Below are positions 385 to 22,655 of a stretch of DNA of 34,849 nt, in pieces. The notes under the pieces were generated by a model, which saw nothing but the letters and a program-made list of their open reading frames with translations, did not search any database and was not told the DNA's origin. Position 1 is the stretch's first letter. Every line of letters starts with the position of its first letter. Made by a program: the position numbers and the translations under genes. The DNA comes from Balneolaceae bacterium (GTDB lineage Bacteria; Bacteroidota; Rhodothermia; Balneolales; Balneolaceae): assembly GCA_003559375.1 (NCBI GenBank), contig PWLN01000230.1, positions 1 to 34,849 of the forward strand, read 5' to 3'.

Positions 385-810
385 TTAACGTTTTGTTGTA
401 ATAAGAATAACACCATTCGCACCACGAACCCCATAAATCGAAGCATCGCTGCCCATTAATACCCGGACATTTTCAATATCCCTGACGTTGATCATGTTGT
501 TTACCTGCGAATAACTGTTACCGACCGCATTGCCATCAATAACATAGAGTGGATCCGTATTTGCCATAAAAGAAGACGAGCCCCTGACCTTTATGGATGG
601 GTTATGGCTTGGCCCTGATACTTGAACACCTGGAACCCTCGCGAGATAATCAGCAAGAGTACGGTAAGTATCTCTTGCATCGGAAACCACGACAGGTGAA
701 CCATCAGGTGATCTGCTGGAATGATCCCGATCAGTTGTTTGCTCTGAAGTTGAACACGCCTGAAACAGAAGAGAAAAGATGAAAATGAATGAAAGGAATA
801 ATTTTTTCAT
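385..810 (-). CDS. Plug-only lipoprotein, TonB-dependent-receptor plug domain without barrel (copy 1)
   Basis: 141 residues. A lipoprotein signal peptide (MKKLFLSFIFIFSLLFQAC, Cys19 the lipidation site) is followed by about 20 polar residues and then a domain matching the plug of SusC/TonB-dependent receptors: LADYLARVPGVQVSG, IKVRGSSSF, DPLYVIDGN, INVRDIENVRVLMGSDASIYGVRGANGVILITTKR. The chain ends right after the ITTKR strand, where a receptor would enter its beta-barrel, so there is no barrel and no room for a carboxypeptidase-like domain. A good Shine-Dalgarno (GAGGTG) precedes the ATG. It lies 56 bp downstream of a close paralogue on the same strand, probably one transcript. Family knowledge supports outer-membrane anchoring. 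The function is unknown to me; it might act as a decoy, partner or regulator of a TonB system, but that is speculation. Confidence 0.85.
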   Translation of the reverse strand: MKKLFLSFIFIFSLLFQACSTSEQTTDRDHSSRSPDGSPVVVSDARDTYRTLADYLARVPGVQVSGPSHNPSIKVRGSSSFMANTDPLYVIDGNAVGNSYSQVNNMINVRDIENVRVLMGSDASIYGVRGANGVILITTKR

Positions 811-866
811 AAAGCCACCTCAGCGCATAACTTTGAATATCTGAAAAAGTATTAATATACCTATGC

Positions 867-1292
867 CTATCTTTTTGTTGTGATAACGATCACACCATTT
901 GCTCCTCTGACTCCATAAAAAGATGCATCACTGCCCTTTAAAACGCGTACATTAGCAATGTCGCGAACATTAAGCATATTGTTTACAAAGTTGTAATTGG
1001 TGCCTACAGGATTCCCGTCAATTACATAGAGTGGCTGAATTTCAGAATTAAAAGACGAAACACCTCTGATCAATACCATTTGGTTGTTTTGAGGGCCAGA
1101 GACATAAACACCAGGCACTCGCTGCAGATAATCAGCCAGAGACCGGAAATAATCCCGTTCATCTGTCACAATATTTACAGAACTGCCGGTATGCAATTCT
1201 ATCTCATTTGGCCGGGTAGCTTGTTCTGAAGTGGAACAGGCTGCCATCAAAAAGAGGAAGGAAAATAGGAATAGGAGAGTTTGAATTTTCAT
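867..1292 (-). CDS. Plug-only lipoprotein, TonB-dependent-receptor plug domain without barrel (copy 2)
   Basis: 141 residues, the same length and layout as its neighbour at 385-810: a lipoprotein signal (MKIQTLLFLFSFLFLMAAC, Cys19), a divergent linker, then the plug core SLADYLQRVPGVYVSG, VLIRGVSSF, QPLYVIDGN, LNVRDIANVRVLKGSDASFYGVRGANGVIVITTKR. The core is strongly conserved between the copies while the linker and signal peptide differ, as expected for a tandem duplication under selection on the plug fold. A GGAG Shine-Dalgarno sits 5 nt before the ATG. It lies about 80 bp downstream of the ilvE stop on the same strand, so it could be read from ilvE or from its own promoter. No receptor barrel or TonB/ExbBD gene is in the window. 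Domain call is confident; role unknown. Confidence 0.85.
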   Translation of the reverse strand: MKIQTLLFLFSFLFLMAACSTSEQATRPNEIELHTGSSVNIVTDERDYFRSLADYLQRVPGVYVSGPQNNQMVLIRGVSSFNSEIQPLYVIDGNPVGTNYNFVNNMLNVRDIANVRVLKGSDASFYGVRGANGVIVITTKR

Positions 1293-8280: not shown

Positions 8281-11200
8281 ATGTCATACTTCGTGCTTGT
8301 TTTGATAGGTTGTGTAATACTATCTGGGAAAAATACAAGTACAATTGCAAAATCAGCTTATTCCGATATAGAATTAAGTAAATCGGAATATATCATTAAA
8401 AGAGAGATCAATACCGAGAATGGTTTGCCTGCCAACGGCGTAAGTATGATAATTCAGGATTCAAAAGGATATATATGGGCTCCTACATTCAACGGATTAG
8501 TTCGGTATGGCGGAAAAAGAATTGTTACATACAATTCCGTGAATGTGCCCGGTTTGGAAACCAATAGATTTACATCTGTAATGGAAGACCGGCATAGCAG
8601 GATTTGGGCTGGCCTTGAGTATAGCAGCTTTGTAATGTTCGATGGAAATAAAACCAAGGTATACAGGCTCGATCCGGATATTGCTGAAACAAACACCTAC
8701 ATAACCAGTTTATTTATTAATGGAGAGGAGGGGATCTGGATAGGTACAAATTCTGGTTTGTACTATTATCATAACGGAAATTATTCAAAAATTGATGGAA
8801 TGCCTCGCGCCGCTGTTCAAAGTATCACTGAGATTAATGGTGAAATATATGTGTTGTTTGAAAATTCATTATTTGTCAATAACAACAGTAGCCAAAACTT
8901 TAAAAAAATATTAGAAGTATCAGATAACAACATCCATCACAGTTCAGGATTTATCATAACTGAATTTGATGTTATTTACAGGTTTTGGAATATCTATTCG
9001 ATAGATGACAGATATATGGTGGTTCATGAAAATGGAATATTTTCATTTAATGATGATGGATATGAGATTCATTTATACAACTGGCAGCTTAATCAATCAG
9101 CACTACACGGTGTTATAAAAAACGAAGAGTTGATATATGTTTACGGTGCCGACGGGCTGTATGAGATAGAAAATTTTTATGGAGAAAGCAGGAGTGCGAA
9201 GCAATTATCGGATATCCGAATAACCTATATGACGATTGATCTTGAGGGCACAATTTGGGTATCAACGTTTGCTCAGGGTATTATTCAAATGATAAGTACA
9301 CCGGTTAATCAGGGCAATAAATTTCAGCTTATAGCAGGTGTACCGGTTACTGCGATGATGGAAGACAGCAAGAGCAACCTGTGGATGGGGACGAATTGTG
9401 ACGGGCTTTACAAATTTTCTGGCACAGAAACAAAACGTTTTGGTGCTGCAGAGGGTATCGACAATGTTTGTGTATGGTCGGTTTTTGAAGATTCTAATGG
9501 AACAATCTGGGCTGGAACCTGGGGTGGCGGTGTTTATTATTATACTCTTGATGCAGATAAATTTGTACGCTTTCAAACTGATGAAATGAAAGATGCTAAT
9601 GCGATATTATCCGTCTTTGAAGATTCAAATGGAAATTTATGGTTCGGTTCATTTGACAGAGGATTAATCAAGTATGATGGCAGAACAACGGAAATTATAA
9701 AAAATAAAGATGATGAGAATCTTAGTGCTGTCCGAATGATTTTTGAAGATCACACGAAAACACTTTTATTTGCAACTGATAGAGGTATCGGATATTATGA
9801 TGGAGAGAGAATCATAAAACCCGAAGAGTTAAATCAACTCCAAAACAGAAATTATAGGGTAATCAAAAAAGATAATGAGGGTCGTTATTGGTTTGGCAGT
9901 TATGGAGGGGGAATATTTATTTACTCACCAGGAAATAGTAGCAGAAAAATTACAACGGAGAACGGCTTATTTGATAACACAATTTCTCAATTACAATTCG
10001 ACTCTGCTAATAATGTTTGGATAGCTGGGAACATGGGAGTTTTCTTTATCAGTTCTGCGGAGATCAGTCGGTTTATGAGTTTTGAGATTGATGAACTGAG
10101 TGTATCAAGAATTGGTGTAGCTGAAGGATTGCCAACCCGTGAAACAACAGGAGGTTTTATGCCATCAAGCCATTTCAACCCTGTATCAGGTGAGCTTTTT
10201 ATTCCGCTTGTACAAGGTATTGCTATGTTGCAAACTGAAAATATGCAGTTAAACAAGCAACAACCTGCTATACTACTCGAAGAAATTGAGATAAATGGTG
10301 AGGTTTATTCATCTGGCGATATCAGGGAAATACCATATGGAGCTAACAGAGTCATCTTTAAATTTGACGTACTTAGTTTTAAAAATCCTGAATATGTTCA
10401 GATTCATTATAAAATGACAGGTATTGACAGCCAATGGCAGAACGCATCGGATTCAAGAGAAGCAATTTATACCACAATGCCCAGCGGTGAATATCAATTA
10501 CTTGTTAAAGCAACAAATAATGACGGGTTCTGGTCTGATGAAATATTACTACATACCATTACGGTAACTCCGCCATTCTGGCAAAAACTTTGGTTTATCC
10601 TATCGATAATCGCTCTGCTTGGGGCTGTTATATTTGGTATTTATCAATACAGATTGAGAAATATCAGGAAAATGAATGTCACATTACAGAAAAAAGTATT
10701 CGAGCAAACTTTAGAGTTGCGGCAGTCAAATGAGGAGTTAAAAGAGTTGATTGATGAAAAAATTAAGCTCCAAAGAGTTCTTGCCCACGATTTAAGAAAT
10801 CCGTTTACGGCTATTTTGGGCTATATGGAATTGCTTAAAAGTAATTATGAGAAGGAACAAAATCAGGAGAATATTGAAATCATTGATATGATACTTTATT
10901 CCGGGAAGAATACTTTAAACCTTTTGGAAAATCTGCTTCAATGGTCTATATCAAGAAGTGGCGCACTTAAAATTGACATTAAACCCAGTAATATTCAATT
11001 CCTTGTTGATGAGGCACTTGAAAGTACTGAAGCACAGGCTGCATTTAAAAATATCAAAGTGATTTCACATATTTATGATCCGATTTATGTCTTGGCTGAT
11101 AACAACATGATTAAGACTGTTTTGAGAAATCTTATCTCAAATTCTATAAAATTCTCAGCTCAAAATGAAAATATAGATATTTACTGCACTGATCATAATT

Positions 11201-21066: not shown

Positions 21067-21687
21067 TTATCGGTTTGTGGTAAGTTCAAGATTTATTCGA
21101 ATATTAACCCTGTCGCCAACTACAGCTGTGGCGGCCCAGTCTCCGACACCAACCCCGTATTCAGTTCTCATGAGATTGGTTTCGGCAACAATACCGGCTA
21201 CAACCACATTTTCACGCATCGGATGATTCATTACACCAAGCAGTTCAAAAGGAAGTTCAAATTCACGGGTTACATCACGAATGGTTAATTCTCCTTTGGC
21301 AACAAACTGATTGTTTCCCGTTTGCTCTATTGTTCTGCTTTGAAAAGTGATATTTTCCCACTGAGCAGTATTGAAGAAATCTCCAGACCGGAGATGATTA
21401 TCGCGGCGCTGATTTCTGGTATTGATACTTTCCACGGGAATAGTAACCTCTATGCTGCTGCCGGCAAGGTTTTCCGGGTCAAAAAATATTTCTGCAGAAT
21501 AGTCATCAAAATTACCGTCAACAGGTGTAAAGAAGTGATTGATGGTAAAGTTAACAGCACTATGCGAACGGTCGATATTCCATGGAGTTGCTTTATCATC
21601 ATTTTGGAATGTGAAAGCAAATGCTGATGAGGAAAAAATAAAAAATGCAATAGTAAAGATTGCACCGAGTAGTCTTTTTGTTTTCAT
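21067..21687 (-). CDS. YceI-family periplasmic protein
   Basis: 206 residues with a Sec signal peptide (MKTKRLLGAIFTIAFFIFSSSAFA). The mature lipocalin-like barrel shows the family pattern: WNIDRSHSAVNFTINHFF near the start, VEVTIPVESINTRNQRRDNHLRSGDFFNTAQWENITFQS (about 80-118), the TIRDVTREFELPFEL strand, and a final VGDRVNIRINLEL strand. YceI proteins bind isoprenoid-type lipids such as polyprenyl chains; the physiological role here is not known. Single gene with its own terminator. The upstream gap holds a MITE. Confidence 0.93.
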   Translation of the reverse strand: MKTKRLLGAIFTIAFFIFSSSAFAFTFQNDDKATPWNIDRSHSAVNFTINHFFTPVDGNFDDYSAEIFFDPENLAGSSIEVTIPVESINTRNQRRDNHLRSGDFFNTAQWENITFQSRTIEQTGNNQFVAKGELTIRDVTREFELPFELLGVMNHPMRENVVVAGIVAETNLMRTEYGVGVGDWAATAVVGDRVNIRINLELTTNR

Positions 21688-21819
21688 ATGTAGTATTGTG
21701 TTTGGTTATCTGGTTCATAACTAACTTGTATTTTCAAACGTTCCGGATGCGAGATTTCAATTCTTGATTATATATAACATTGGTGCATTATTATGAAAGA
21801 GTTGCTCAGTATTTGTGAT

Positions 21820-22050
21820 CACATCTGTCCCCTTGTGCCTATGGCACAACGTTTAAAATAAATTTTGAATTACCCGTAAGGGATCTCCCTGCTAAAGGGC
21901 AGCCCTATAGCCACGTTTGGAGATCCCGGCTTATCTTTGTGAGATTTTCCCTGTTGTGAGATAACTTGCTTTGATAAATGGCAAGTGGTGCAAAGGCCGG
22001 GATGACGGGGTTTATCTGCGCCGCCAGGTGGCACCAAGTGGACAGCTGTG
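21820..22050. mobile_element. 231-bp MITE-like element with terminal inverted repeats and 9-bp target duplication
   Basis: The left end CACATCTGTCCCCTTGTGCC (21820-21839) pairs with the right end (22030-22050; its complement is 21 bases beginning CACAGCTGTCCACTTGG) at 18 positions, with two mismatches and one gap. Both ends are flanked by the identical 9-mer ATTTGTGAT (21811-21819 and 22051-22059), the expected target-site duplication. The inside codes for nothing convincing but is rich in hairpins: TTGTGCC/GGCACAA (21833-21849), GGGATCTCC/GGAGATCCC (21880-21927), ATCCCGGC/GCCGGGAT (21923-22003), ACTTGC/GCAAGT (21964-21986). It lies 8 bp past the mpg stop codon. It explains most of the 371-bp gap between yceI and mpg; the remaining 123 bp upstream of yceI show no feature beyond presumed promoter DNA. 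Confidence 0.82.
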
Positions 22051-22058
22051 ATTTGTGA

Positions 22059-22655
22059 TCAAAAACAATCTGCAGGTATACAGAAACGCCATAACTTATT
22101 GGCATCTTCACCGGCATAATCAATGCCAATTCTTTTTGTTTGTTCAATACTGTCGGTATTAATATCTATTTGCCTGTCCTCAATCCAAATGGGTGGTTTT
22201 AACAGTGAAACGGCATTGAGATCCGTGGTTATTCCCAGTGCCTGGGTCAGCTTGCCCGGCCCATTGGCCAGATTGGTTGTATTTATTTTGTCTCTCCGTT
22301 TCATCATAATTTCAATGCCATCAACCGGGCGAATTGCACGGATCAATACTGCATCTGCCAATCCCTCCTTATTGGTTACAACATTCAGAAGATGATGTAT
22401 GCCATAACAGAGATAGATATACGCAACACCGGGTCTTCCGTACATTACCTCGGTTCTTGCTGTCCGGAGCCCATTATTGGCATGGCATGCTTTGTCATTG
22501 CGACCTGAGTAAGCTTCAGCTTCCGTAATGATGCCGGCAGTTAACTTGTTGTCAATGGTACTGCATAAAACCTTGCCAAGCAGCATCCGGCTTATTTCTA
22601 CAACATCCGAACCGTTATAAAAGGATTCCGGTAGCAATTTTCCCTGAGTTTTCAT
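22059..22655 (-). CDS. mpg: DNA-3-methyladenine glycosylase (AAG/MPG family)
   Basis: 198 residues, the usual bacterial length. Family landmarks: LLGKVLCS, the catalytic-glutamate motif ITEAEAYSGRNDKACHA, RTEVMYGRPGVAYIYLCYGIHHLLNVV, AVLIRAIRPVDG and NGPGKLTQALGIT. It flips and removes alkylated or deaminated purines (3-methyladenine, hypoxanthine). It is 2 bp downstream of yihY, so co-transcribed. The stop codon overlaps the target duplication of the MITE that follows, so the insertion fell just outside the reading frame. Confidence 0.95.
   Translation of the reverse strand: MKTQGKLLPESFYNGSDVVEISRMLLGKVLCSTIDNKLTAGIITEAEAYSGRNDKACHANNGLRTARTEVMYGRPGVAYIYLCYGIHHLLNVVTNKEGLADAVLIRAIRPVDGIEIMMKRRDKINTTNLANGPGKLTQALGITTDLNAVSLLKPPIWIEDRQIDINTDSIEQTKRIGIDYAGEDANKLWRFCIPADCF

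Follow-up and report, generated by a model that had tools for sequence, protein, structure and literature searches.

A Probable IS4-Derived MITE with a Mosaic Interior Between mpg and a yceI-Like Gene in a Balneolaceae Genome

The window analyzed here, a 34,849-nucleotide stretch of Balneolaceae DNA, carries a 231-bp non-coding element (positions 21820 to 22050, forward strand) that is very probably a MITE, i.e., a non-autonomous DNA transposon, in this case one derived from an IS4-family IS with IS4Sa-type ends. The MITE family is new, and the kind of mobile DNA to which it belongs is well known; its unusual features are a mosaic interior and 15-bp extended ends.

Borders and Insertion Site

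The element is flanked by two exact copies of the 9-mer ATTTGTGAT (21811 to 21819 and 22051 to 22059), as stated in the preliminary description, and 9-bp duplications also occur at other copies. The direct repeat around the window element is 11 nt long (ATTTGTGATCA) instead of 9 because the right flank starts with CA by chance, and the border is therefore ambiguous by 2 bp from this copy alone; comparison with other copies fixed CACA as the element border. No transposase reading frame lies within these limits. The ends form imperfect inverted repeats: CACATCTGTCCCCTTG-TGCC and CACAGCTGTCCACTTGGTGCC share 18 of 20 letters with one 1-nt gap, in agreement with the ends of about 20 bp and 18 matching positions described earlier, and their 11-bp cores match at 10/11 positions. 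On the left, the terminal inverted repeat spans 36 bp (21820 to 21855, plus strand) and is composed of the core CACATCTGTCC, a 15-bp insert (CCTTGTGCCTATGGC in the window copy, ACTTGTGCCTATGGT in most copies) and a degenerate AAAACGTTTA, which reads ACAACGTTTA in the window copy. The right end consists of the core CACAGCTGTCC (22040 to 22050, minus strand), from which the likeness to the left end runs ~10 bp further with one gap.

Both neighboring genes are intact and lie on the minus strand, with mpg, coding for a methylpurine-DNA glycosylase (22059 to 22655; Pfam PF02245, E 2.3e-63), upstream of the element and a yceI-like gene (21067 to 21687; Pfam PF04264, E 5e-42) downstream. The stop codon of mpg occupies 22059 to 22061, so the edge of the element is situated 8 bp past it, exactly as first described; mpg remained intact because the right target duplication overlaps the stop codon by one base, its last. 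Elsewhere in the window (385 to 1292, minus strand), two adjacent and similar 141-aa lipoprotein-like proteins are encoded, and the one at 385 to 810 matches a TonB-receptor plug domain.

The mpg and yceI genes are also adjacent in 20 relatives, and the element was found in none of these 20 gaps, which provide the empty site in sequences too diverged for pinpointing the exact empty target 9-mer. The gaps measure ~46 to 415 bp, mostly 90 to 180 bp; the gap in the window (371 bp) comprises 131 bp without the insert plus 240 bp. The comparison with sister genomes that had been advised thus revealed the absence of the insert.

Fold and Possible Function

Strong internal folding had been noted at the outset and is well supported: the element folds at -87.2 kcal/mol against -67.4 ± 4.9 kcal/mol for its shuffles (z = -4.1; 0/200 shuffles equally stable), and includes a hairpin (21880 to 21927, plus strand) in which GGGATCTCC (21880 to 21888) pairs with GGAGATCCC (21919 to 21927) over 9/9 positions. 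Such a fold located directly past the mpg stop codon, along with the proximity of some other copies to gene 3′ ends, would suit a functionally conserved local structured RNA or terminator of the mpg transcript that is no transposon at all. This is very unlikely, considering that the same gap exists without the element in 20 relatives, that copies with target duplications are dispersed in the genome, and that the element contains no T-run terminator and matches no Rfam family above threshold. On this last account, the proposal that the hairpin chain serves as a terminator or RNA-stability element has so far found no support, and an effect of this kind is possible. A secondary regulatory role is compatible with a MITE origin, as the insert could separate the transcription of mpg and yceI or stabilize the mpg message. 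A folded insert between codirectional genes would lend itself to this role and other MITEs of bacteria are known to act in comparable ways (PMC3733652), but relatives do without the element and no terminator was found in it, which makes such a role rather unlikely.

Dispersed Copies in the Genome and in Relatives

The reading of the element as a MITE is supported by further copies with like ends and 9-bp duplications in its own genome, in which related ends, whole or fragmentary, number about 30. A search of this genome with the 249-bp stretch (element and duplications) returned 33 partial matches that form separate blocks, namely the left end (query 1 to 65), the interior (85 to 199) and the right end. 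The 21-nt end pattern TCACANCTGTCCACTTGTGCC, with at most 3 mismatches, recovered 26 ends versus 1 for the reversed pattern. Six further elements of 47 to 1202 bp with 9-bp duplications were delimited: two with duplications matching at 9/9 positions (468 bp on contig C461, ATACTAAAT; 385 bp on C225, ATTTAAGAA), two at 8/9 (1202 bp on C4; 81 bp on C192) and two at 7/9 (47 bp on C58; 62 bp on C296). The C296 copy (L055, 1501 to 1564; G000:C296, about 8603 to 8664) is made of two inverted repeats back to back and forms a near-perfect palindrome. Of the 25 ends tested, 8 could be paired with another end at a duplication match of 8/9 or better, and 11 at 7/9 or better; in a control with swapped duplications (300 rounds), the mean was 0.18 at the threshold of at least 7/9 and 0 at that of at least 8/9. 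For many of the own-genome ends, pairing yielded no partner.

A 5-bp duplication with AT belonging to the ends was also considered. It does not fit the C225 copy, with ATTTAAGAA on both sides, nor the C4 copy, with GA as the last two bases on both sides; AT is therefore unsuited as an end in these two copies and the 9-bp duplication stands. Once their duplications were collapsed, verified insertion sites proved intergenic except for short overlapping frames, and some of this small sample lie near gene 3′ ends. Short, non-coding, bounded by terminal inverted repeats and dispersed in copies with target duplications of fixed length, the window element has the attributes of a MITE. The reverse pattern, i.e., a lack of further copies combined with conservation at the locus in relatives, did not occur.

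Most elements have two unlike arms with a common inverted repeat of ~36 bp, CACAnCTGTCC-ACTTGTGCCTATGGT-AAAACGTTT, after which arm A runs on as TAGAATTTTAAAAAATCTTTATTTCTGAGGTTTCAGGACTGATGATTTCGCAT and arm B as AAAAAAATTATGAATTACCC; the 15-bp middle block is missing from some ends. The window copy carries arm B on its left (21820 to 21875, plus strand, ending ...TTTTGAATTACCC), and its right side is reduced to the short inverted repeat, which is fused to another repeat, TTTATCTGCGCCGCCAGGTGGCACC.

A profile of arm A, built from 11 sequences, gave 30 hits; in a search of 28 same-genus genomes it hit, apart from the own genome, G011, G013, G017, G019, G020, G021, and G009. The sister genome G013 contains family elements of 462 and 521 bp, each with 9/9 duplications. 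A 25-nt pattern searched with at most 3 mismatches in 92 genomes of the family Balneolaceae matched only the own genome and G011, and an exact 19-mer searched in the GTDB genome collection was found in a Balneolaceae MAG contig and in one gammaproteobacterial contig, the latter match being probably due to chance. Viral contigs gave no match to the element.

Full-Length IS4-Family Partners

A search for an IS sharing the ends had been recommended, and a full-length IS was indeed found in two same-genus genomes. It measures 1369 bp in G019 (contig C23; duplication AAAAAACTT, 9/9), where it encodes an intact 394-aa DDE transposase, and 1376 bp in G009 (contig C210, L153; duplication ATATAGGAT, 9/9), where the transposase is split into two overlapping frames; the G009 copy is therefore probably inactive unless frameshifted. 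Both have the left end CACATCTGTCCAAAACGTTTAAAAAAA and the right end CATAGCTGTCCAAAACGTTTT, and lack the 15-bp block. The transposase combines DUF4372 and DDE_Tnp_1, and scores 260 bits with the NCBIfam IS4 family model, against a cut-off of 115. The single-ORF DDE transposase of G019 carries the motifs D(65)D(104)E and Y(2)R(3)E(6)K, which fall within the D(60–110)D(100–150)E and Y(2)R(3)E(6)K taken as the signature of IS4 and IS4Sa transposases. In addition, the ends CACATCTGT and CATAGCTGT, the exact 9-bp duplications and the lengths of both copies lie within the description of IS4Sa, i.e., CA------T ends, repeats of 8–10 bp and a size of 1150–1750 bp (De Palmenaer et al., 2008, Table 1; PMC2266710). 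By their terminal sequences, the length of their duplications, their overall size and the YREK motif, the full-length partners would fit subgroup IS4Sa. An IS of Persicobacter, 48% identical, has the ends CAGTAGTGTCCAAA, and two of its insertions are flanked by 9-bp duplications (ATTGTAGAA and ATAGAAACC).

The likeness between the MITEs and the IS extends past the outermost bases. Arm A resembles the right end of the IS beyond the inverted repeat or first 20 bp (z 3.2–4.4), and not its left end. With the 15-bp insert set aside, the consensus of arm B agrees over its terminal ~28 bp with the left end of the IS, which lies upstream of the transposase; past these ~28 bp the subterminal match is weak (z 1.3).

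Search for a Helper in the Own Genome

The absence of a transposase from the element, as first described, stood up to analysis. The helper that it was said to need elsewhere can be specified as of the IS4 family and IS4Sa-like, and it is absent from the own assembly, in which (92% complete, 466 contigs) no close full-length helper IS was found. A protein search of this genome retrieved a 35%-identical fragment cut by a contig start (C365) and one marginal hit; the C365 fragment is the only clearly related transposase of the assembly and has no matching ends nearby. Given the completeness and fragmentation of the assembly, a multi-copy IS could be missing from it; alternatively, the helper may have been lost from the genome.

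Other sources were examined and rejected. The own genome encodes six PF01609 transposases, and matching ends were found near none of them. IS256-type elements generate 8–9 bp duplications too, and the genome contains no PF00872 match. The 1202-bp copy on C4 contains no transposase frame and does not qualify as an autonomous element. The mover of the window copy was presumably the IS4-type transposase found in the two relatives, or a close relative of it.

Mosaic Interior

The nested hairpins reported inside the element do exist as a fold, and call for one correction. The stretch from 21895 to 22007 (plus strand) is independently repeated at several other genome sites without MITE ends, and much of the "hairpin chain" therefore belongs to a different repeat lodged within the MITE, separate from its ends. 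This stretch contains a palindrome-bounded 89-bp module (21919 to 22007, minus strand) of the form CGTC-ATCCCGGC...GCCGGGAT-CTCC, whose minus-strand bounds are CGTCATCCCGGC and GCCGGGATCTCC; a count of the pattern YGTCATCCCGRSC over the own genome gave 33 occurrences, against 0 for its reverse. Next to the module, what is left of a third type of repeat (TTTATCTGCGCCGCC...GGTGGCACC; 22010 to 22034, plus strand) is fused to the right inverted repeat, and a similar fusion is found in the copy on C358. The interior module also occurs without MITE ends in two tandem copies, 113 bp start to start, on another contig (L007/L010; G000:C237, 3337 to 3550).

Taken alone, the module has the CGTC or TGTC tag, the AT-starting stem and the short unpaired tail of CGTC-tagged REPs. 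It exceeds their 20–40 bp and their loop of 4–5 nt; with its 89 bp and long loop, it is therefore best called REP-like, and was not filed as a REP. Its CGTC-tagged palindrome, together with the four Y1 transposases of the own genome (L198–L201), could point to a REP/BIME-type repeat that owes its spread to a tyrosine (RAYT) transposase and is flanked by 9-bp repeats only coincidentally. This alternative is extremely unlikely for the element as a whole: its outer borders are the IS4-type ends, which are accompanied by 9-bp duplications at many sites, and Y1 elements usually do not make target duplications. Furthermore, none of the module motifs tested was found within ~1.5 kb at two of the four Y1 loci, and at C299 and C49, the remaining two, there are only single motifs, separated from the gene by ~200 bp or more. 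A RAYT as the mover of the interior module was likewise rejected, as none of the four Y1 transposases has module motifs directly at its gene. A degenerate MITE-like end precedes one of the Y1 (IS200-like) transposase genes by ~460 bp (L049/L199; G000:C299, 4136 to 4963), and no matching right end was found there.

The mosaic interior of the MITE presumably arose via nested insertion or recombination at short common sequences. On C4 (L014/L036; 2002 to 2132), arm A is directly joined to a partial interior module at the short common stretch ATCTCA, a junction that, from its sequence, looks like recombination at microhomology.

Proposed Mobilization and Significance

We propose that the MITE kept both ends of an IS4-family IS and lost its interior, including the transposase. 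The retained ends would allow an IS4-type transposase to bind, cut and paste the MITE in trans, likely into AT-rich intergenic sites, with 9 bp duplicated each time. Other palindromic repeats from the own genome would have taken the place of the lost interior as a mosaic, which in the window copy comprises the 89-bp CGTC-REP-like module and the piece of the third repeat fused to the right end. Speaking against this account are the lack of a close full-length helper in the own assembly, the 15-bp insert that sets the MITE ends apart from those of the IS, the weak subterminal match of arm B and the many ends left unpaired. One may even envision that, in this Balneolaceae lineage, IS4-type MITEs pick up palindromic CGTC-REP-like repeats, a class not known to have a transposase of its own, and disperse them by virtue of the MITE ends, an idea that we regard as improbable.

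With its helper type, borders and target duplication defined, this undescribed family of IS4-type MITEs of Balneolaceae can be masked by annotators, and its trans-mobilization becomes amenable to testing. Its mosaic interiors offer a route to asking how CGTC-type palindromic repeats without a known transposase spread.

Comparison with Known Systems

Literature searches on the present MITE family, and on MITEs of IS4 type whose interiors are palindromic, revealed nothing closer than the following four systems. The full-length partners share with IS4Sa (PMC2266710) the IS4-family transposase, the YREK motif, the CA......T ends, 9-bp duplications and a length of 1369–1376 bp, whereas the window element is devoid of a transposase, its inverted repeat is interrupted by 15 additional bp and its interior is foreign. 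The Acinetobacter element MITEAba12, presumably mobilized in trans by a resident IS, is similarly short and non-coding, with IS-like ends and 9-bp duplications (PMC6382973). However, its parent ISAba12 has other ends, the relatives listed in that paper being of the GGCTTTGTTGC type, and MITEAba12 is uniform (111–114 bp), unlike the window family with its variable interiors and lengths of 47–1202 bp. TIMEs, Tn3-derived miniature elements, are likewise non-autonomous with inverted ends and can form mosaic transposons, but their ends are of the Tn3 type and not IS4 (PMC4133298). Finally, the interior module resembles CGTC-tagged REPs (Di Nocera et al., 2013; PMC3733652) by its CGTC, ATCCCGGC stem and CTCC tail, and differs from these 20–40 bp repeats with 4–5 nt loops by its 89-bp length and long loop.
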